From assembly GCF_008195825.1 (NCBI RefSeq), contig NZ_CP043329.1, forward strand, positions 620,001 through 684,000: DNA of 64,000 nucleotides, in the 5' to 3' direction. The notes under the pieces were generated by a model. It ran no database searches, was not told the DNA's origin, and was given only the letters and a program-made list of their open reading frames with translations. The DNA is from Pedobacter aquae. GTDB lineage: Bacteria > Bacteroidota > Bacteroidia > Sphingobacteriales > Sphingobacteriaceae. Shown here piece after piece: positions 55,320-63,769 of this stretch. A program made the position numbers and the translations under genes. Numbering within the stretch: the stretch's first letter is position 1; each line of letters opens with the position of its first letter.

Positions 55320-55965
55320 GGCGTATCGGTTGCAGGTTGTGAGTATTATTGATTGATTTTTGATGGATTGAATGATTGATTAAGCTTTCCTAGATTTTTT
55401 AATTTTGAATTTTTCCTTTTGAATTTTTCATTCAGTTGGCTGTTGACAGTTTTGAGTTTCCAGTTCTGGGTGGTGACTTTTCTTTAATTTTTAATTTTTC
55501 CTTTTGAATTTTTCATTCAGTTGCCAGTTGTGAGTTTCTTGTTTCCAATGTTATTGATTGATTTTTGATGGATTGAATGATTGATTAAGCTTTCCTAGAT
55601 TTTTTAATTTTTAATTTTTCCTTTTGAATTTTTCATTCAGTTGCCAGTTGTGAGTTTCTTGTTTCCAATGTTATTGATTGATTTTTGATGGATTGAATGA
55701 TTGATTAAGCTTTCCTAGATTTTTTAATTTTTAATTTTTCCTTTTTCATTCAGTAGCCAGTTGTGAGTTTCCTGTTTCCAGTTCTGGGTGGTGACTTTTC
55801 TTTTTTTTAATTTTGAATTTTTCCTTTTGAATTTTTCATTCAGTTGCCAGTTGTGAGTTTCCTGTTTCCAATGTTATTGATTGATTTTTGATGGATTGAA
55901 TGAGTGATTAAGCTTTCCTAGATTTTTGAATTTTTAATTTTTCCTTTTGAATTATATTTAACCAC
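55320..55965. repeat. compound tandem/dispersed repeat block after ispE
   Basis: Four copies of a segment starting ATTGATTGATTTTTGATGGA begin at 55348, 55553, 55673 and 55876. They alternate with stretches such as TTTTTCCTTTTGAATTTTTC and CAGTTGCCAGTTGTGAGTTT. Copies 2 and 3 are exactly 120 bp apart; the others are separated by about 205 bp and include an extra TTCTGGGTGGTGACTTTTCT piece. The core is related to the repeats around the four-helix-bundle gene at 35.6-36.3 kb. No gene is visible here. Confidence 0.85.
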
Positions 55966-56048
55966 CAAGTTCGCAGAGGACACAAAGCTGGGCAGAGACT
56001 TATAATATTCATATGATGATTTAAAGCTTTCGGCCTTCAGCTTTACAC

Positions 56049-56386: not shown

Positions 56387-57433
56387 ATGAATTGGAAAGC
56401 AGAAATAAAAACTCATAAAGGGCAAAAAAGAGTAGTTGTTTATTTTGATTATAACTCTTCAGCAATTGAAAGGTTAAAACAACTCGAAGATGCAAAATGG
56501 AGCAAGACTTTAAATGCCTGGCATTTACCAGCCACACAAGGAAATAGGATAAGGTTTAATTTAGAGTCTGATAGCAGTAGTATTATACCAAAAGAAGAAG
56601 CTATTATTCAGATAGAAGAATTTAGAAAATATTTAAAAACCAAACGTTATAGTTTAAATACGATTAAAACATATACTGAAGCTTTAAAATCTTTTTTAAT
56701 ATTTTATCGTGATAAGATGGTAGCTGAAATTGACAATAAAGATGTTATTAACTATCATCAGAACTATATTCTTAAAAATAATTTATCTAGCTCTTATCAA
56801 AACCAAATCATTAATGCCATTAAGCTATATTTTAAAACCTTAAAAAATACCAATATAGTTGTTGATAAAATTTACAGACCAAAAAAAGAGAGGCTACTAC
56901 CTAATGTTTTAAGTAAGGAAGAAGTTAAGCTCATTTTAGATGCTCACGCCAATATTAAACATAAGACAATGTTATGTTTAATTTATAGTTGTGGTCTTAG
57001 ACGGAGTGAACTCTTGAATTTAAAACCTAAGGACATAGATTCTAAAAGGAATTTGGTTATTATAAGACAGGCTAAAGGCAAAAAAGATAGAATTGCACCT
57101 TTATCTAAAGCTATACTTGGTTTATTAAGAAACTATTATAAACTTTATTCGCCAAAGGAGTGGTTGTTTGAAGGCCAGTACGCGGGTACACCTTATGATG
57201 AAAGAAGCTTAGGTAATGTTTTGAAACTTGCTTTAAAAAAAGCAAAAATATATAAACCAGTTACTTTACATTGGTTAAGACATAGTTATGCTACTCATTT
57301 ATTAGAAAGCGGAACAGATTTACGCTACATACAGGAAATTTTAGGTCACAATAGTAGTCGTACCACAGAGATTTATACCCATGTGAGTACTAAAAGTTTA
57401 CAGAATGTTAAAAGCCCTTTTGATGATTTATAG
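56387..57433 (+). CDS. tyrosine recombinase heading an integron-like cassette array
   Basis: A 348-residue site-specific recombinase with the full catalytic set: Arg205 (CGLRRSELL), Lys230 (QAKGKKDR), His295-x-x-Arg298 (HWLRHSYATHLLESG), His321 (LGHNSSRTTEIY) and Tyr330. A SAM-like core-binding domain spans about 72-155. Residues 1-55 form an extra N-terminal module (VVVYFDYNSSAIERLKQLED, W38, NAWHLP) that resembles HARP-like DNA-binding repeats. The extra helix of classical integron integrases between the Lys and His boxes is not apparent. The gene points toward the cassettes, which begin 90 bp after its stop. Confidence 0.88.
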   Translation: MNWKAEIKTHKGQKRVVVYFDYNSSAIERLKQLEDAKWSKTLNAWHLPATQGNRIRFNLESDSSSIIPKEEAIIQIEEFRKYLKTKRYSLNTIKTYTEALKSFLIFYRDKMVAEIDNKDVINYHQNYILKNNLSSSYQNQIINAIKLYFKTLKNTNIVVDKIYRPKKERLLPNVLSKEEVKLILDAHANIKHKTMLCLIYSCGLRRSELLNLKPKDIDSKRNLVIIRQAKGKKDRIAPLSKAILGLLRNYYKLYSPKEWLFEGQYAGTPYDERSLGNVLKLALKKAKIYKPVTLHWLRHSYATHLLESGTDLRYIQEILGHNSSRTTEIYTHVSTKSLQNVKSPFDDL

Positions 57434-57460: not shown

Positions 57461-57504
57461 AAGTTGCACAAATACCACCGTATTATGTTGTATTTGTGCA
57501 ACTT
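57461..57504. repeat. perfect 15-bp inverted repeat between the recombinase and the first cassette
   Basis: AAGTTGCACAAATAC (57461-57475) and GTATTTGTGCAACTT (57490-57504) flank a 14-nt loop. It lies 28 bp after the recombinase stop and 18 bp before the first cassette core site. It has no T tract typical of a terminator, so it may be part of the attachment (attI-like) site, although a terminator cannot be ruled out. Confidence 0.85.
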
Positions 57505-57522
57505 TATGAGACATATATACAA

Positions 57523-58456
57523 GTTACCGCCAATTGTAAAACGACCGACACTACTATGAAATGTAAGCATTGCGACAGCAGGAACGGAAAAATTAATTCT
57601 ACTTATAAATTCTACGACATTTTTGAATGCCATGATTGCCAAAGATGGACAAGGCAAATGATTGACGATTGTTGTAGAAGTCCTGATGAACAATATGTTT
57701 TTGGACTTCAAAACGGAGTTGTATTTACTGTTTACGTACAATGCTTGAATTGTTTTGGTTGTAAGAATCGAACAAAAGGACTTTCTCCAAAAACCTATTC
57801 TGATAAAGTAAGAAAAGAAAGCATCTTTCGTGAGACCGAATTCAAAAATTGGATTAAAGCCAAACAAGATGAATCTCAAGAAATTTATGAAATTGAAAAG
57901 CATTTGAATTATCTTAAGACCAACGACTATTTTTATAGAACTCATCTACAATCAGAATACTGGAAAACGATAAGGCTAAAGGCATTAGAAAGAGATAACA
58001 AAATTTGCCAATCCTGTAAACTGGAACAAGCCACAGAGGTTCACCATTTGACCTATAAAAATTTAGGAAACGAGTCTTTAGACGAATTAATATCATACTG
58101 TAGAGCTTGCCACGAAAAAGTTCACGAAAAGACAAATTTGGATTAAAAACATTTTTAGTCTTTAATTCAATAGTTTTTTTATCAGTTATTTTAAGCTTAT
58201 AAATAATATCATAAACCGACGATGTTTGTAATTCTAAATTTAAGTCATCAACCATTTTATCAAGTTTCATGGCGTACAATTCTTTTTCTATATTTTTCAT
58301 TATATTTAATTTAATGAAAGAAAAACAACTGGCGGTAACAACAAATTTGTGTTATAACGGCCGAAGTGCTTTTACTTCCTGTTATCTAATTAATTTACTT
58401 TTTTGCGGGTTGAAAAGCTATTGCTATAAAGCCATTACAACCCAAATTCGCAACCG
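57523..58456 (+). mobile_element. integron-like gene cassette 1 (HNH protein)
   Basis: Proposed cassette from the core site GTTACCGCC (57523-57531, cut after G) to the next core G at 58456. Its 3' end carries the inverse core GGCGGTAAC at 58330-58338, a perfect 9-base complement of its own start. Over 14 bases, GTTACCGCCAATTG pairs with CAACTGGCGGTAAC at 13 positions. One gene, in the same orientation as the recombinase, fills it. The boundaries are inferred from this complementarity. Confidence 0.7.
57556..58146 (+). CDS. HNH endonuclease-like protein with N-terminal zinc ribbons
   Basis: A 196-residue protein from ATG 57556; the longer frame from 57496 would read through the inverted repeat and core site and is rejected. 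N-terminal Cys pairs at 3/6, 25/28, 39/40 and 63/66/69 suggest zinc ribbons. The C-terminal HNH domain has C151-x2-C154, the HH pair at 163-164 (TEVHHLTYKNLG) and C182-x2-C185-H186 with H190. The layout is that of a nuclease with a DNA- or RNA-binding front end. The start codon lies 32 bp inside cassette 1. Role unknown; phage defence or a mobile nuclease are possibilities. Confidence 0.72.
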   Translation: MKCKHCDSRNGKINSTYKFYDIFECHDCQRWTRQMIDDCCRSPDEQYVFGLQNGVVFTVYVQCLNCFGCKNRTKGLSPKTYSDKVRKESIFRETEFKNWIKAKQDESQEIYEIEKHLNYLKTNDYFYRTHLQSEYWKTIRLKALERDNKICQSCKLEQATEVHHLTYKNLGNESLDELISYCRACHEKVHEKTNLD

Positions 58457-58464
58457 TTACAGGC
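58330..58464. repeat. attC-like recombination site 1 (135 bp)
   Basis: R'' GGCGGTAAC (58330-58338), 2-nt spacer, L'' CAAATTTGTG (58341-58350), central part, L' CCCAAATTCG (58441-58450), 5-nt spacer, R' GTTACAGGC (58456-58464). R''/R' pair at 7 of 9 positions and L''/L' at 8 of 10. The centre holds two further hairpins: ATAAC..GAAGT / ACTTC..GTTAT and GGGTTG / CAACCC. Only the invariant AAC/GTT triplets match the classical attC consensus RYYYAAC/GTTRRRY. Confidence 0.75.
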
Positions 58465-60848
58465 AAGCTTAAAAAAAACAGACGCAAAAAATGACAATAG
58501 ACGAATTGACTTCAAAAAATATAAAAACCTTAGCCGACTTTGAATTATTATCAAATCGTGGTAGACAAGAGGGTTTATTCTTTGTGCCTGACACTATATC
58601 AAATATAGTTGCGGACTTAGCAAATATTTCAAATCCAAAGAATGCTATTGTACTTAATTCAAACTATGGCGAAATTTCCTCAAAACTTTCTGAAATTGAA
58701 AGTCTTGTAAGTATTGACATAAATGAAAACAACATTGAACTTTCTAAATATCTGAACCCAAAACTAACATTTATAAATTCAGACCCTTTAAGTTATTCTC
58801 TATCTGACAAGTTTGATTTTGTTGTTACTTTTCCACCACTTGGACAAAGACTTGAATTTAACGGGAGACGAACTTCAAGCGAAATATTATATATTGAAAA
58901 AGCACTTGATATGCTAAATGAAAATGGCGAAGCCATTTTCATTTTATCAAGCAATTTCTTGACAGCACCAGTTTACGCTGAACAAAGAAATTTAATTCTA
59001 AATAATTTTGGATTAAGCAAAATCATATCATTGCCACAAGGAACAATTAGAAACACCGGAATTGAACTTTCTATTTTAGTAGTAAGCAAAGCCAATGTTT
59101 TAAAAACAGATTATTATGCTGTCAATCAAGGGTTTAATTTGAAAAAGGCAAAACCAACTTTTTCGGTTTCCAAAGAAGAATTAATCGAAAGATGGGATTT
59201 GAATTTTCATAATCCCCAAAATCAAAAGTACCAAGAACAATTAAACGAAAACGAAACCCAAAAAATTGGAGATTTAGTTGAAATTTGCCTTGGAATCCCT
59301 TTTAACCAAGAAGAAAGGAAACCAAAAGGAACCTATAAAATTCTTTCTCCAAGAAATATTTTGAACGGTTTTCTTGAAGAAACAACAAGTGATAATTTTA
59401 TCGAAAAAGATAATTTCAATACAAGGGAACAAAAAGCTATACTACGAAAAGGAGATATACTTTTTCCTCGATTCAACAGAGAAAAAGTTACGATATATGT
59501 TCACAATTTAGATGATAATAAATTTATTGCCAATCAACATATTGTTATACTTCGTGGTAAAAATGCTGAATATGTTGCAACTTACCTTAACACAGATAGC
59601 GGTTTAAGTTTGTTTAATCAACAAATTAAAAGACACGCAAGAGGTGGAGCACTTCCAACAATATCAATACAAGACCTAACAAATATTCAAATACCTATTC
59701 TTCCAATAGCAGATTTAGAATATGCTTCAAAAAGCAAACTTGAAAAATTATCGTATCAACAACTTCTTGATATAAAAGAGAAATACGATCTATTAAAAAC
59801 CAAGTATTCTAATCTTAAAAATGAAAAAACAGTTAGTCCACACGAGGAACAATTACAAAGTTTGCAAAATACTTTACAGCAAGTTTTATCAAATCAACAA
59901 GAACACACTCGCAAGCTTACTATTATTGAAAGTAAAATTGATGATATTAAAACTGTAATTCTCAATTTGTCAGTTGATTTTAAAGAAATACAAAATTTAC
60001 CACGTGAAATTGAGGATAAAATTTCACGATTAAACCAAAAATTGGAAGAACAAATTTCCAATCTACATTTTGAACAAAAACAAATTGACTCCTATATCAA
60101 AGAAATTAAAAATTGGTTTGACTATTATGACTTGTTAGAATCAAAAAGTCAAAAATATTTACCTGAGGCTGAATATATCTTCGACCAAATTTCAAAACTT
60201 GACAATCCAGACTACTCACCTTTCATTCTTCAATATTGTAGAGCATTGGAAAACGAATTATTAAGTAAAATATTTAGAGCGTATGTTCAATCGTTGATTA
60301 ATAGAAATATTGATTTTGAAAAACAATTTGCTTGGGATTTAGGGAAAAAAGATTCAGGCAAACCAAATGATGAAAATACTTTTAGGTTATCGAAACATAT
60401 TCAAAAGTGCCTTACTAAAAATAATGAAGAATGGTTTTTTGAATTAGGCTCAATGGAAGTAAATCTTAGATATTTAACAGGTAGGACAATTGAAAAAAGC
60501 CCACTATTGCAAGATTTAAAAGAGTTTGTTTTAGACCGTTTTGAAAAGGAATTATTAAATATTGAATATCTTGATGAAATAAAAACAATAATCAGGGACT
60601 ATCGAAATCAATCGGCACACCCAAATTTAATGGACACTGAAAAAGCAACGACATTTCACAAACAAATGAAAGAATGTTTAATCAATTTAATGGAAAACTA
60701 CAAGACGAAATAAAAAGCCAGCCTGTAACAGGGGTTTTGCAAAAAAGCGGGTTCAGTGCTAAATTGAACATTTGGAATTCTAATGAACTTTTGTGCTAAA
60801 CTGAACATTTGAGCTTCTAATTCCGCTTCTTCGCAAAGCCCCAAAACG
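58456..60848 (+). mobile_element. integron-like gene cassette 2 (methylase/TRD/HEPN fusion)
   Basis: Proposed cassette from core site GTTACAGGC (58456-58464) to the core G at 60848. Its inverse core GCCTGTAAC at 60721-60729 is the perfect complement of its own first nine bases, and complementarity continues to GCTT / AAGC beyond a 2-base mismatch. The single gene occupies almost the whole length: the ATG is 35 bp after the core and the stop is 7 bp before the inverse core. Confidence 0.72.
58491..60713 (+). CDS. degenerate N6-adenine methylase / type I specificity domain / coiled coil / HEPN-like fusion protein
   Basis: A 740-residue protein. Residues 20-200 follow the HsdM-type methylase fold, but motif I is degraded (LNSNYGE instead of DPxxGxG) and motif IV reads TFPPLG instead of NPPF/Y. 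Residues 255-410 resemble an HsdS target recognition domain (KIGDLVEICLGIPF, RKGDILFPRFN, LPTISIQDLTNIQIPILP). Residues 415-540 are coiled coil. Residues 570-735 are helical and contain R705-N-Q-S-A-H710, the R-x4-H motif of HEPN ribonucleases. This suggests a sensor-effector defence protein rather than a working methylase; function is inferred only. It is the sole gene of cassette 2. Confidence 0.72.
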   Translation: MTIDELTSKNIKTLADFELLSNRGRQEGLFFVPDTISNIVADLANISNPKNAIVLNSNYGEISSKLSEIESLVSIDINENNIELSKYLNPKLTFINSDPLSYSLSDKFDFVVTFPPLGQRLEFNGRRTSSEILYIEKALDMLNENGEAIFILSSNFLTAPVYAEQRNLILNNFGLSKIISLPQGTIRNTGIELSILVVSKANVLKTDYYAVNQGFNLKKAKPTFSVSKEELIERWDLNFHNPQNQKYQEQLNENETQKIGDLVEICLGIPFNQEERKPKGTYKILSPRNILNGFLEETTSDNFIEKDNFNTREQKAILRKGDILFPRFNREKVTIYVHNLDDNKFIANQHIVILRGKNAEYVATYLNTDSGLSLFNQQIKRHARGGALPTISIQDLTNIQIPILPIADLEYASKSKLEKLSYQQLLDIKEKYDLLKTKYSNLKNEKTVSPHEEQLQSLQNTLQQVLSNQQEHTRKLTIIESKIDDIKTVILNLSVDFKEIQNLPREIEDKISRLNQKLEEQISNLHFEQKQIDSYIKEIKNWFDYYDLLESKSQKYLPEAEYIFDQISKLDNPDYSPFILQYCRALENELLSKIFRAYVQSLINRNIDFEKQFAWDLGKKDSGKPNDENTFRLSKHIQKCLTKNNEEWFFELGSMEVNLRYLTGRTIEKSPLLQDLKEFVLDRFEKELLNIEYLDEIKTIIRDYRNQSAHPNLMDTEKATTFHKQMKECLINLMENYKTK

Positions 60849-60856
60849 TTAGCGGC
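60721..60856. repeat. attC-like recombination site 2 (136 bp)
   Basis: R'' GCCTGTAAC (60721-60729), 1-nt spacer, L'' GGGGTTTTGC (60731-60740), then AAGCGG (60745-60750). On the other side are CCGCTT (60823-60828), L' GCAAAGCCCC (60833-60842), a 5-nt spacer and R' GTTAGCGGC (60848-60856). L''/L' match at 9 of 10 positions and R''/R' at 7 of 9. An inner GTTCAGT / ACTGAAC pairing (60751-60757, 60800-60806) is perfect. The size and the short/5-nt spacer asymmetry equal those of site 1. Confidence 0.75.
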
Positions 60857-61180
60857 AAGCATAGACCTACACCAAACAGACACAGAAACAATATAAACAT
60901 CATACTTTTGACAAATGAAATTCACGATATTATCAGCAGTTTTAATTCTTGCAACAGGACAGGTTTCAGGACAAACAGACCTTGCCTTTAATTTTACCAA
61001 AAAACCAAGTGGACAATTTTCAAGTTTAACAACCAAATCACTTGACGACATAACTTCAACAAAAGAAGTTCTTGTTAGACCATTCATTACAGACGATGCA
61101 AGAGTAGTTGGAGAACGACTTGCCCAACTTGAAACTTGGGTACGGTTTGACAAAGAAGCAGGACAACATTGGATATTAGG
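60848..61180 (+). mobile_element. integron-like gene cassette 3, left part, interrupted by IS21
   Basis: Starts at core site GTTAGCGGCAA, which shares the GTTAnnGnCAA pattern with the two preceding core sites. It runs into the left end of an IS21-family element at 61181. The 3' inverse core expected for this cassette is not visible in the window. Confidence 0.5.
60915..61180 (+). pseudogene. secreted protein gene truncated by IS21 insertion
   Basis: ATG at 60915 gives a signal peptide (MKFTILSAVLILATGQVSG) and about 70 further residues ending ETWVRFDKEAGQHWILGG. The frame then continues into IS21 end sequence to a stop at 61220. The segment RPFITDDARVVGERLAQLET looks like the N-terminus of an outer-membrane beta-barrel protein, but I cannot name the family. 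The ATG is 67 bp inside cassette 3. The sequence beyond the IS does not clearly continue this protein. Confidence 0.5.
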
Positions 61181-61279
61181 TGGAGATTCCGATGAAGTTG
61201 ACCACCCTATTCCGATTTAACTTGACCAGTCATTCCGTTAGAAACTGACCAGTGTATTCCGCTGGAAACTGACCAGGTA
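61181..61279. repeat. left multiple terminal repeats of the IS21 element
   Basis: Four copies of ATTCCG followed at about 10-14 bp by TGACCA, at roughly 61186, 61210, 61231 and 61255. They are the expected IstA binding sites. Confidence 0.75.
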
Positions 61280-61337
61280 AGGACGTTGAAAGATGCTGTA
61301 AGATCAAGCCTATTTTTGGGGGATTAACATCTCAGAA

Positions 61338-62888
61338 ATGGCAAATACGACAATCAGCATGAATAAGATAAGACAAATCCTCAGGATGTCCCATCAGGGG
61401 CGCAGCATCATGTCCATTACGGTACAGAGCGGTTGTTCCCGTAATACGGTAAGGAAATACATTTCTGCCTTCAATCAGGGAGGCTTTAGCTTTGATGAGG
61501 TAAACGCCCTTAATGACAAAGAACTGGAAGACCTTTTTGGAAAGAGCAGGGAGCAGCCCCCTAGTTCTCGTATGCAAGCCCTTCAACGATGTTTCCCTGC
61601 TATGGACAAAGAACTCAAGCGTACAGGGGTAAACCGGCAAATGTTATGGGAGGCTTACCTGAAAGAATTCCCCCAAGGCTACCGTTACAGCCAGTTCTGT
61701 CTCTATTATAAGCAATGGAAGTCTCGTGTGAACCCGGTAATGCATATGGACCATAAGGCAGGCGATATGCTGTATGTTGATTTTGCCGGCCAGAAGCTGA
61801 GTTATGTAAATGAGGAAACCGGCGAAGTGATCCTAGTAGAGGTATTCGTCGCTATCCTTGGCGCCAGCCAGCTCACTTATGTAGAGGCGGTAGCAACCCA
61901 GCAGAAAGAGGACTTCATCATGGCCTGTGACCATGCCTTCCATTATATCGGAGGGGTGCCGGGAGCTATTGTGCCGGACAACCTGAAAGCGGCAGTGACC
62001 AAGAGCAGCCGTTATGAACCTCTGCTGAACGAGGCCTTTTCAGATTTTGCCGACCATTATGGCACCACAATATTGCCTGCCAGAGCCTATAAACCCCGCG
62101 ATAAGGCTTTGGTAGAAGGAGCCGTCAAGATCATCTATTCCCGTGTCTATGCTCCTTTGAGGAAGATGGTTTTCCACTCCATCGAATCCTTGAATGCCGC
62201 AATAAAGATAAGCCTGGAAGAACATAACAACCAATTATTGAAAGGTCGTAACTACAGCCGGCGCCTACAGTTTGAAGAGATAGAACGGGGAGCCCTTTCT
62301 ACCCTCCCTCTGATTCCCTACGAACTCAAAAAACAATGTTACGCTACGGTAATGAAGAACGGCCACGTCTGCCTAGGCATAGACAAACATTATTATAGTG
62401 TGCCATACCGCTTTATCGGGAAGAAGATAAAGCTGTTATATTCCAGATCCACAGTAGAGGCTTTCTTCCATTACGAGCGTATAGCGATACATAAACGTAT
62501 CAAAAGCCCGTACAATTATAGCACCGACAAGGACCACATGGCCACCTCGCACAGGTTTGTGGCAGAATGGACACCGGAGAAGTTTCTGGGCTGGGCCTCC
62601 TCCATCCATGAGGATGTAAGGCTATATATCCTAAAAATACTGGAACGTAAACAACATCCCGAACAAGCTTATAAATCCTGTGTAGGAATACTCAGCTTTT
62701 CCAGAAAAGTAGGGAACGAGCGGCTTCAGATGGCCTGCAGAAGGGCGTTGGGCTATGGAATATACAACTATAAGACCATACAATCTATACTAGAAAACAA
62801 GATGGACAGCTATCAGGATAATCTTTTTGCGGATGAACTGCCCATGCCCAGCCATGAAAATATTAGGGGAGAAGATTATTATCAATAA
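61338..62888 (+). CDS. istA: IS21 family transposase IstA
   Basis: A 516-residue DDE transposase. It has an N-terminal helix-turn-helix (SIMSITVQSGCSRNTVRKYI) and a catalytic core with Asp in LYVDFAGQKL, Asp in GAIVPDNLKAAV and Glu in RDKALVEGAVKI. The C-terminal Mu-type beta-barrel region contains DKHYYSVPYRFIGKKIKLLY. Length and domain order are complete. It is followed by istB after 11 bp. Confidence 0.95.
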   Translation: MANTTISMNKIRQILRMSHQGRSIMSITVQSGCSRNTVRKYISAFNQGGFSFDEVNALNDKELEDLFGKSREQPPSSRMQALQRCFPAMDKELKRTGVNRQMLWEAYLKEFPQGYRYSQFCLYYKQWKSRVNPVMHMDHKAGDMLYVDFAGQKLSYVNEETGEVILVEVFVAILGASQLTYVEAVATQQKEDFIMACDHAFHYIGGVPGAIVPDNLKAAVTKSSRYEPLLNEAFSDFADHYGTTILPARAYKPRDKALVEGAVKIIYSRVYAPLRKMVFHSIESLNAAIKISLEEHNNQLLKGRNYSRRLQFEEIERGALSTLPLIPYELKKQCYATVMKNGHVCLGIDKHYYSVPYRFIGKKIKLLYSRSTVEAFFHYERIAIHKRIKSPYNYSTDKDHMATSHRFVAEWTPEKFLGWASSIHEDVRLYILKILERKQHPEQAYKSCVGILSFSRKVGNERLQMACRRALGYGIYNYKTIQSILENKMDSYQDNLFADELPMPSHENIRGEDYYQ

Positions 62889-62899
62889 ACAAATAATAT

Positions 62900-63649
62900 A
62901 TGAACACCAACACTTTAGAAAAAATGAGGTCGATGAAATTCTTCGGCATGTTCCACGCTTTCAAAAGCAGCCTGGAGAGCGGGCAGACTGATGGTTATAC
63001 TGGCGATGAGTTATTGGCCCACCTATTGGAAGCCGAATGGGATTACCGGCAGAACAGACGTATAGAACGACAGTTATTGTATGCCCGCTTCCGCTATAAA
63101 GCAACCATAGAGGAGATAAAGCACTATATAGAGCGAAATATCGACAGGAACCAGCTGATGCGCCTTGCCGAATGTAGCTTTATCGACCGCAATGAAAACC
63201 TGCTGATTACCGGAAGCACCGGTATCGGAAAGAGCTATGTGGCCTCAGCCATTGGACACCAGGCCTGCTTTTCAGGCTATAGAGTACTTTATGCAAGCAC
63301 TCCTAAATTATTCGCTAAATTGAAGATGGCCAAGGCTGATGGATCCTATAGTAAGGAAATCCTTAAAATAGAAAGGCAACAGTTACTGATACTCGATGAC
63401 TTTGGTATCCAGCCCTTTGATGCCCAAAACCGGGCAGCACTGATGGAAATCATTGAGGACAGGCATGGGAAATCCTCTATGATCATCACTTCCCAGCTTC
63501 CTGTCGGCAAATGGCATGAACTTATCGGTGAGAAAACCATTGCCGATGCAATCCTGGATCGTATCGTACATGATGCGCATAGAATGGAGCTACAGGGGGA
63601 ATCGATGAGAAAAAAAAGAAATCAGGAACCACTAAAAAATCACTCATAA
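62900..63649 (+). CDS. istB: IS21-like element helper ATPase IstB
   Basis: A 249-residue AAA+ ATPase of the DnaC/IstB type. Walker A is TGSTGIGKSYVASAIGHQA, Walker B is LLILDDFGIQPFD and the sensor motif is SSMIITSQLPVGKWHE. It forms the oligomer that activates IstA at the target DNA. It is intact, so the element may still be able to move. Confidence 0.96.
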   Translation: MNTNTLEKMRSMKFFGMFHAFKSSLESGQTDGYTGDELLAHLLEAEWDYRQNRRIERQLLYARFRYKATIEEIKHYIERNIDRNQLMRLAECSFIDRNENLLITGSTGIGKSYVASAIGHQACFSGYRVLYASTPKLFAKLKMAKADGSYSKEILKIERQQLLILDDFGIQPFDAQNRAALMEIIEDRHGKSSMIITSQLPVGKWHELIGEKTIADAILDRIVHDAHRMELQGESMRKKRNQEPLKNHS

Positions 63650-63719
63650 ATCTTTAAAATAATTATTACTTTTATCGAAGATCATAAGGCATCTTTCAAC
63701 CCTCTTCGCCAGCTTAATC

Positions 63720-63769
63720 ACTGGTCAGTTTGCCACGGAATTACATGGTCATTTTCATCGGAATATACA
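63720..63769. repeat. right terminal repeats of the IS21 element
   Basis: Two inverted copies of the left-end unit: TGGTCAGTTTGCCACGGAAT and TGGTCATTTTCATCGGAAT, ending in ATACA at the element border. Confidence 0.75.

Follow-up and report, generated by a model that had tools for sequence, protein, structure and literature searches.

The locus that begins with a tyrosine recombinase gene in the window (the whole stretch of DNA analysed, 64,000 nucleotides of Pedobacter aquae, contig NZ_CP043329.1, positions 620,001 to 684,000) very probably represents a divergent form of chromosomal integron, one widespread in Bacteroidota, with the tyrosine recombinase as its integrase. In the proposed mechanism, circular cassettes would be inserted by the integrase between G and TT at an attI site behind its own gene, and excision and shuffling would proceed through the pairing of folded, single-stranded attC-like hairpins. 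In the circular cassette, the two ends would add an outer stem to the hairpin, which would consist of GTT plus six pairs, a fixed mispair at position 8 and about four more pairs.

Recombinase gene and layout of the locus

The open reading frame and the residues quoted in the preliminary description were present in the sequence. The features of the locus are given below (window positions, strand, feature, and evidence in brackets; R1 is a covariance model built from 49 sites).

56387-57433, + strand: tyrosine recombinase, proposed integron integrase, 348 aa (ORF; Pfam; AlphaFold model, pLDDT 87.6)
56387-56560, + strand: HARP-like N-terminal module, residues 1-58 (profile match to SMARCAL1 HARP 4o66; predicted fold)
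56615-56851, + strand: core-binding domain, residues 77-155 (Pfam Phage_int_SAM_4, E 1.3e-14)
56906-57391, + strand: catalytic domain, residues 174-335, without the IntI-specific insertion (Pfam Phage_integrase; alignments)
57461-57504, no strand assigned: hairpin with 18-bp arms between the integrase gene and the insertion point, part of attI or a terminator (inverted repeat; fold)
57511-57526, + strand: attI-like site ACATATATACAAG^TTA, putative crossover 57523/57524 (end rule 6/6 plus 4/4; similar motif in close relatives)
57524-58456, + strand: cassette 1, 933 nt, with an HNH-like ORF at 57556-58146 (ends by rule; HNH E 4.7e-4, just below cut-off)
58332-58460, + strand: attC-like site 1 (R1, 82.1 bits, E 4.2e-14; member of R1's own alignment)
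58457-60848, + strand: cassette 2, 2392 nt, with a methylase/specificity-like ORF at 58491-60713 (ends 6/6; family matches)
60722-60852, + strand: attC-like site 2 (R1, 129.9 bits, E 2.1e-23; member of R1's own alignment)
60849-61180, + strand: cassette 3, first 332 nt, broken by an IS21-like element (100% identity over 332 nt)
61181-63769: IS21-like element with ORFs at 61338-62888 and 62900-63649 and imperfect terminal inverted repeats

No Pfam domain was assigned to residues 1-75 of the recombinase, and no match at E<=10 was obtained when its first 78 residues were scanned alone against Pfam. The catalytic part matched XerA and archaeal Xer proteins (NF040815, 4a8e, 5hxy) best, but the protein differed from XerA in its extra N-terminal module and cassette array, and its 218 bits stayed below the curated XerA cut-off of 220; among five proteins scanned, this cut-off was passed only by the relative L031 (241.4 bits). 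The NCBI family name for such proteins is 'site-specific tyrosine recombinase/integron integrase'. The integron integrase model TIGR02249 matched the window recombinase in two stretches, at 200.0 bits against a cut-off of 265, and residues 250-274 aligned to residues 180-246 of IntI4 with 42 residues fewer, which supports the absence of the IntI insertion implied by the preliminary description. This insertion is treated as defining for IntI in the literature excerpts used here (collectively PMC9024848, PMC8618304, PMC9668308, PMC8138268, PMC4035279, PMC8946536 and PMC8352920, also the sources of the statements ascribed to excerpts below). AT-rich direct repeats of about 120 nt were observed at 55329-55990, directly before the integrase gene.

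attC-like sites, cassette ends and cassette mobility

The hairpin sites (TAAC...GTTA, about 131 nt) were imperfect palindromes on the recombinase strand. In an nhmmer search of recombinase loci, 72 of 74 matches to the repeat lay on the recombinase strand and downstream of the gene. R1 gave 70 matches in 80 loci, 64 of them downstream on the same strand, six upstream on the opposite strand (L062, L064 and L065, from Psychroserpens, Chryseobacterium and Epilithonimonas) and none otherwise. In the P. aquae genome, 35 sites were found by R1, 34 of them at E<=4e-5. On the + strand, 12 sites made up the array that follows the integrase gene (678,332 to 705,752), and further sites lay at 855-878 kb (eight), at 999-1016 kb (seven) and near 1.13 Mb (two); five strong sites were located on the - strand between 1.32 and 2.64 Mb.

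The stem of the sites covaried. A total of 226 cells were changed on both sides versus 72.4 in shuffles, and 94.2% of the stem cells were paired versus 63.0% in shuffles and at most 42.1% when slid, while further pair types were not special in this test, being reached by 55 of 500 shuffles. Cells changed on one side only were rare (10 in the table), a pattern suggestive of selection for pairing of DNA rather than RNA. An array of foldable attC-like sites beside the enzyme is supported by the co-oriented downstream sites and the covarying stem. The sites may fold as single strands, with one strand chosen for recombination, and the recombinase at the head of the array is the presumed actor.

For circular cassettes inserting at G^TT, the sequence that follows GTT in one site and the sequence that precedes AAC in the next would come from one cassette and should be complementary, and the two sides of the same site need not be. 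Across the relatives and the window, 29 consecutive pairs averaged 4.86 of 6, versus 2.40 for the two sides of the same site (62 sites) and 2.47 in shuffles (maximum of 2000: 3.24); five duplicates (L001, L085, L086, L089 and L090) and six matches without a recognisable core were left out. In the P. aquae genome, 20 of 23 consecutive pairs were complementary at 6/6 and the remaining three at 4, 4 and 1. When this genome was joined with other loci, 49 of 74 consecutive pairs reached 6/6, and 25 fell short, some of them because an intervening site had been missed. Within the 49 full pairs, position 7 agreed in 31, position 8 in none, positions 9-12 in 42-48 and position 13 in none; position 8 at the cassette start was A in all 49 and always mispaired. 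This outer stem with its fixed mispair looks like an extended binding arm.

Some of the loci shown here had also served to derive R1 and the position-8 rule. Applied without R1 to 109 loci, duplicates included, the end rule found 72 cassettes downstream on the same strand, nine upstream on the opposite strand, and one and none in the other two arrangements, where shuffled sequence gave about 1.2 per side. The rule had been learned from such loci; its controls are the bias in strand and the shuffled sequence. Cassette starts were complementary to their own ends, which points to a crossover at G^TT, as in integrons. R1 found little beside the recombinases of Pontibacter and Rufibacter; the end rule found cassettes in L040, L059, L061 and L066 and none in L047, L048 and L052. 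In the Rufibacter loci L059 and L061, the cassettes were observed to be only about 55-57 nt apart, with a short site type outside the R1 model. Among HARP-carrying loci whose downstream sequence measured 1 kb or more (44; 20 loci with less were left out), 14 gave no site by R1 or by the end rule. This speaks against the integron reading, as do the NCBI cut-offs that the recombinase did not reach, the missing IntI insertion, the pairs short of 6/6 and the genomes with sites or a recombinase but not both.

A first cassette starting at 6/6 was found in 13 of the 16 loci examined for attI (18 were chosen, and L096 and L104 were left out), the exceptions being L017, L041 and L168. In the window and seven close relatives, this start lay 90-97 nt past the stop codon (179 nt in L169), behind CATATATAnAAG or a near-match; the motif varied in L171 and L166, and a hairpin-like stretch preceded the start in close relatives. 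In five more distant HARP-type loci (L170, L037, L030, L112 and L107), the start was 67-580 nt away and other sequence stood before it. From these comparisons, attI is placed beside the integrase gene, with insertion at G^TT.

The cassettes were also recovered as copies elsewhere. Two intact 1044-nt cassettes, 100% identical, stood in tandem at genome positions 691640 and 692684 (691640-693727), which suggests a recent duplication. Their first 332 nt equalled cassette 3 of the window, and the sequence from 63770 on was not the remainder of that cassette. A 98% copy of the last 1000 nt of the 1044-nt cassette was present in another cluster, a 1436-nt cassette recurred over its full length at 93.7% in another species (L167), and a 3695-nt cassette had a full-length counterpart at 86% in Pedobacter puniceum (L035), standing there as the first cassette behind the integrase. 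As read from these copies, cassettes move as whole units with base-exact ends. Frequently several genes were carried by one cassette, and the cargo included restriction-modification genes, mercury transport, carbonic anhydrase, superoxide dismutase and a histidine kinase; in a subset of cassette proteins picked by size, PADLOC matched eight of 20 and Pfam six of 10.

Ordinary intergenic palindromes, such as terminators, REP-like repeats or MITEs lying near an unrelated recombinase, would likewise be palindromic, intergenic and scattered over several places of the genome, and the Rfam scan of the array, which gave no match, also leaves room for them. Such palindromes do not account for the bias of strand and side relative to the recombinase, for the ends that match within one cassette around a fixed mispair, for whole-cassette copies with exact ends, or for the co-occurrence of sites with the recombinase, and this explanation is considered extremely improbable beside that of an integron.

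The N-terminal module

The module, about 60 residues long, was found in 89 of the 104 recombinases of the tree (once in 65, twice in 21 and three times in three). The five duplicates named above, rows shorter than 240 aa and rows aligning over fewer than 200 residues were left out of this tree, and L028 was counted as HARP-less because its frame is broken. At E<0.1, two or three copies were detected in 24 of 84 module-carrying proteins. Three N-terminal copies at this threshold were observed in the recombinases of L060, L037, L045, L078, L112 and L071, and later copies appeared more HARP-like than first copies. The consensus in the genome relatives was roughly I-x-x-x-F-x-Y/x-x-x-x-L-x-x-x-x-K, then K-W-S-x-T-x-K-x-W-x-x-P, and W38 was conserved in at least 90% of 69 aligned relatives; by this alignment, the conservation of the module exceeds chance.

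The relation to HARP was examined by sequence profile. The Pfam HARP model (PF07443) matched six of 54 first copies (best E 0.0014) and seven of 23 second or third copies (best E 3.1e-5), and DUF5710 matched 17 of 54 (best 6e-4) and one of 23. The highest HARP score among the 77 copies was 23.9 bits, so that none passed the gathering cut-off of 25, and the window's own copy matched neither Pfam HARP nor DUF5710. When 61 genomes were searched with Pfam HARP, weak scattered matches were obtained in 37 and none of the 61 gave one above the cut-off; the recombinase ORFs of G004 and G046 were among the weak matches, with two stretches each. A profile of the 54 first copies, searched against PDB sequences, ranked 4o66, the HARP domain of SMARCAL1, first at E 0.0089, and a profile of 63 first, second and third copies ranked it first among 177,635 PDB sequences at E 1.3e-5, with the runner-up at 0.055. 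The HARP structure was reported by Mason et al. 2014.

For fold comparison, the module was folded alone, because the fold search with the whole recombinase covered residues 69-348 only. AlphaFold predicted a beta-beta-alpha-beta-beta-alpha order for residues 1 to about 56, with a mean pLDDT per ten-residue block of 93-94 in the first five blocks and 87 in the sixth. Foldseek, run against 350,542 chains, ranked 4o66_A and 4o66_C first and second at E 0.84 and 1.1, which is not significant. In VIA, the module model gave no Z of 5 or more; the best were aIF1 (Z 4.3) and the XPB N-terminal region (3.3-3.4), and 4o66 was absent from the list.

The preliminary description had read a HARP-type pattern in residues 1-55 and had named a profile search as the check. 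The profile search came out in favour of HARP kinship, and the conserved module stands, while recognition at the level of the Pfam cut-off was reached by no copy. A different small DNA-binding fold of the beta-alpha-beta type, whether DUF5710-like or that of an arm-binding domain, would agree with the larger number of first copies matched by DUF5710, with the scores below the HARP cut-off and with the indifferent Foldseek and VIA results. The first rank of 4o66 in the PDB, the preference of later copies for HARP over DUF5710 and the tandem copies, which vertebrate HARP proteins have according to the literature excerpts, make such a fold rather unlikely. HARP and DUF5710 could themselves be kin. 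By sequence profile the module is HARP-like, and 'HARP-like' is a fair name for it. Like SMARCAL1 HARP (PF07443, 4o66), it occurred in tandem copies, N-terminal beside another DNA enzyme; unlike it, it was fused to a tyrosine recombinase rather than to an SNF2 ATPase, scored below the Pfam cut-off and gave a weak fold match.

The module had also been proposed to replace the IntI insertion in reading folded cassette ends, and this part was not supported. Six HARP-less recombinases (L158-L163), also without the IntI insertion as read from their sequences, adjoined the same family of sites, divergently and with the same end architecture; by the end rule, 10 of 18 pairs in their arrays reached 5/6 or better, and their attI-like motif was different from that of the HARP type. 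As the C-terminus of L160 is broken and L160-L163 are near copies, they represent about three lineages. In the HARP-less genomes G017, G064, G083, G108 and G142, no further recombinase match was found at E<=1e-40, so that an integrase acting in trans is not evident. These arrays indicate that HARP is not essential for living with such sites. On the tree, carriers and non-carriers of the module required five changes. The outer stem was considered as the partner of HARP and rejected, since HARP-less arrays have it too. The preliminary description had named, as a refuting case, recombinases that share the module but work exclusively on double-stranded sites; no such recombinase was seen, yet there are the 14 site-free HARP loci mentioned above.

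Near-identical HARP-less recombinases and attI-like stretches were observed in four different genomes (L161, L162, L163 and L160), as if this platform had itself spread recently. At L168:8868-10954, a HARP-type and a HARP-less recombinase were adjacent on one strand, with a site further along.

According to the literature excerpts, the human HARP protein binds forks, bubbles and single-strand/double-strand junctions, and annealing activity can be transferred by transplanting HARP domains. The module would most probably bind where the folded site has its base, at the fork or single-strand/double-strand junction, or aid the annealing of the site's arms. It may instead, within the same integron, serve the choice of attI or contacts between proteins rather than the folded attC. 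That close HARP-type relatives share CATATATAnAAG and HARP-less ones use another motif, both with the same attC-like family, speaks for this second role, which we regard as a serious though less favoured possibility; the other sequence before the start in the five distant HARP-type loci speaks against it, and the structure-specific DNA binding described for human HARP suits a folded site. Our likeliest guess is that the module acts at the base of the folded site, with attI choice as the rival.

Distribution and comparison with known integrons

R1 sites were detected in 93 of 151 genomes of the Sphingobacteriaceae sample and in 125 of 247 sampled Bacteroidota genomes. Within the family, sites were present in 56 of 56 recombinase-positive genomes (E<=1e-40, HARP-less included) versus 37 of 95 others, and within the phylum in 74 of 83 (E<=1e-60) versus 51 of 164 others (Fisher p 1e-16 and 3e-19, respectively, for genomes that are not independent). 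A recombinase without sites was found in nine genomes of the phylum sample, and sites without a detected recombinase in 37 genomes of the family and 51 of the phylum. Of 379 plasmid records that gave any match, two from Chryseobacterium encoded a 61%-identical integrase whose N-terminus was complete. One of these two plasmids had four R1 sites (E<1e-9), and on the other neither R1 nor the end rule found any. Relatives were also observed in bins of Neomarinimicrobiota, Sericytochromatia and Latescibacterota or in an unnamed bin (L030, L031, L032, L036 and L081), some with sites or cassettes, which means either misbinned contigs or a range that extends past Bacteroidota.

GC skew, sampled in 20 stretches of 6 kb each, was predominantly positive between 0.3 and 1.28 Mb and predominantly negative between 1.36 and 3.1 Mb; it was noisy, with the opposite sign at 1.20 and 2.10 Mb, and tracked gene direction. 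The dnaA gene at position 412 was rejected as a mark of the origin, since the skew turns near 1.3 and 3.2 Mb. The sites lay on the + strand below the turn and on the - strand above it, which gives them one shared orientation to replication, and, provided that the skew has been interpreted correctly, the leading-strand template would carry the bottom strand. A bias of gene direction could yield the same picture. Most sedentary chromosomal integrons are reported with the same orientation to replication in the excerpted part of a review.

The locus resembles the IntI integrons, such as the sedentary ones of Vibrio, in the integrase gene beside attI, the co-oriented cassettes with palindromic sites and the G^TT crossover. 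It differs from them in an integrase with HARP-like repeats and without the IntI insertion, in a gene and array that run in the same direction in most loci seen, in the several genes often carried per cassette, and in an outer stem that spans about 12 positions and contains a fixed mispair. The ends of classical attC sites match over about 7. Clusters of sites without an integrase and the orientation to replication are further likenesses to sedentary chromosomal integrons as the literature excerpts describe them. With the phage and ICE tyrosine recombinases that carry an arm-binding domain, as far as the excerpts present them, the enzyme shares a DNA-binding-like N-terminal addition before the core-binding domain; in contrast to these, its nearest catalytic kin are XerA and IntI and its sites are cassette hairpins.

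According to the excerpts, complete integrons are almost absent from Bacteroidetes in the large IntegronFinder 2.0 survey, which reports a single one, in Salinibacter. A review nevertheless counts Bacteroidota as one of the integron-bearing phyla, and another study has 11 taxon-specific attC models, none of them for Bacteroidetes. No description of this integron system was found in the open-licence PMC literature (preprints were outside this scope), and one may be in print elsewhere. We put forward only tentatively the combined view that about half of the sampled Bacteroidota genomes carry sites of an unrecognised integron type, that its integrases read the folded single-stranded ends with HARP-like repeats and the extended, mispair-marked outer stem in place of the IntI insertion, and that this would be the first HARP-like domain known in a site-specific recombinase.

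If the integron reading is right, a major phylum would possess a system for exchanging cassettes that is widespread and yet prone to be overlooked by searches based on IntI. Its cargo would include restriction-modification genes, metal transport and other functions, and it would be present also on a Chryseobacterium plasmid. Integron behaviour would be separated from the IntI insertion, which is regarded as essential to it, and it would become testable whether a recombinase can make use of a fork-binding-like module.
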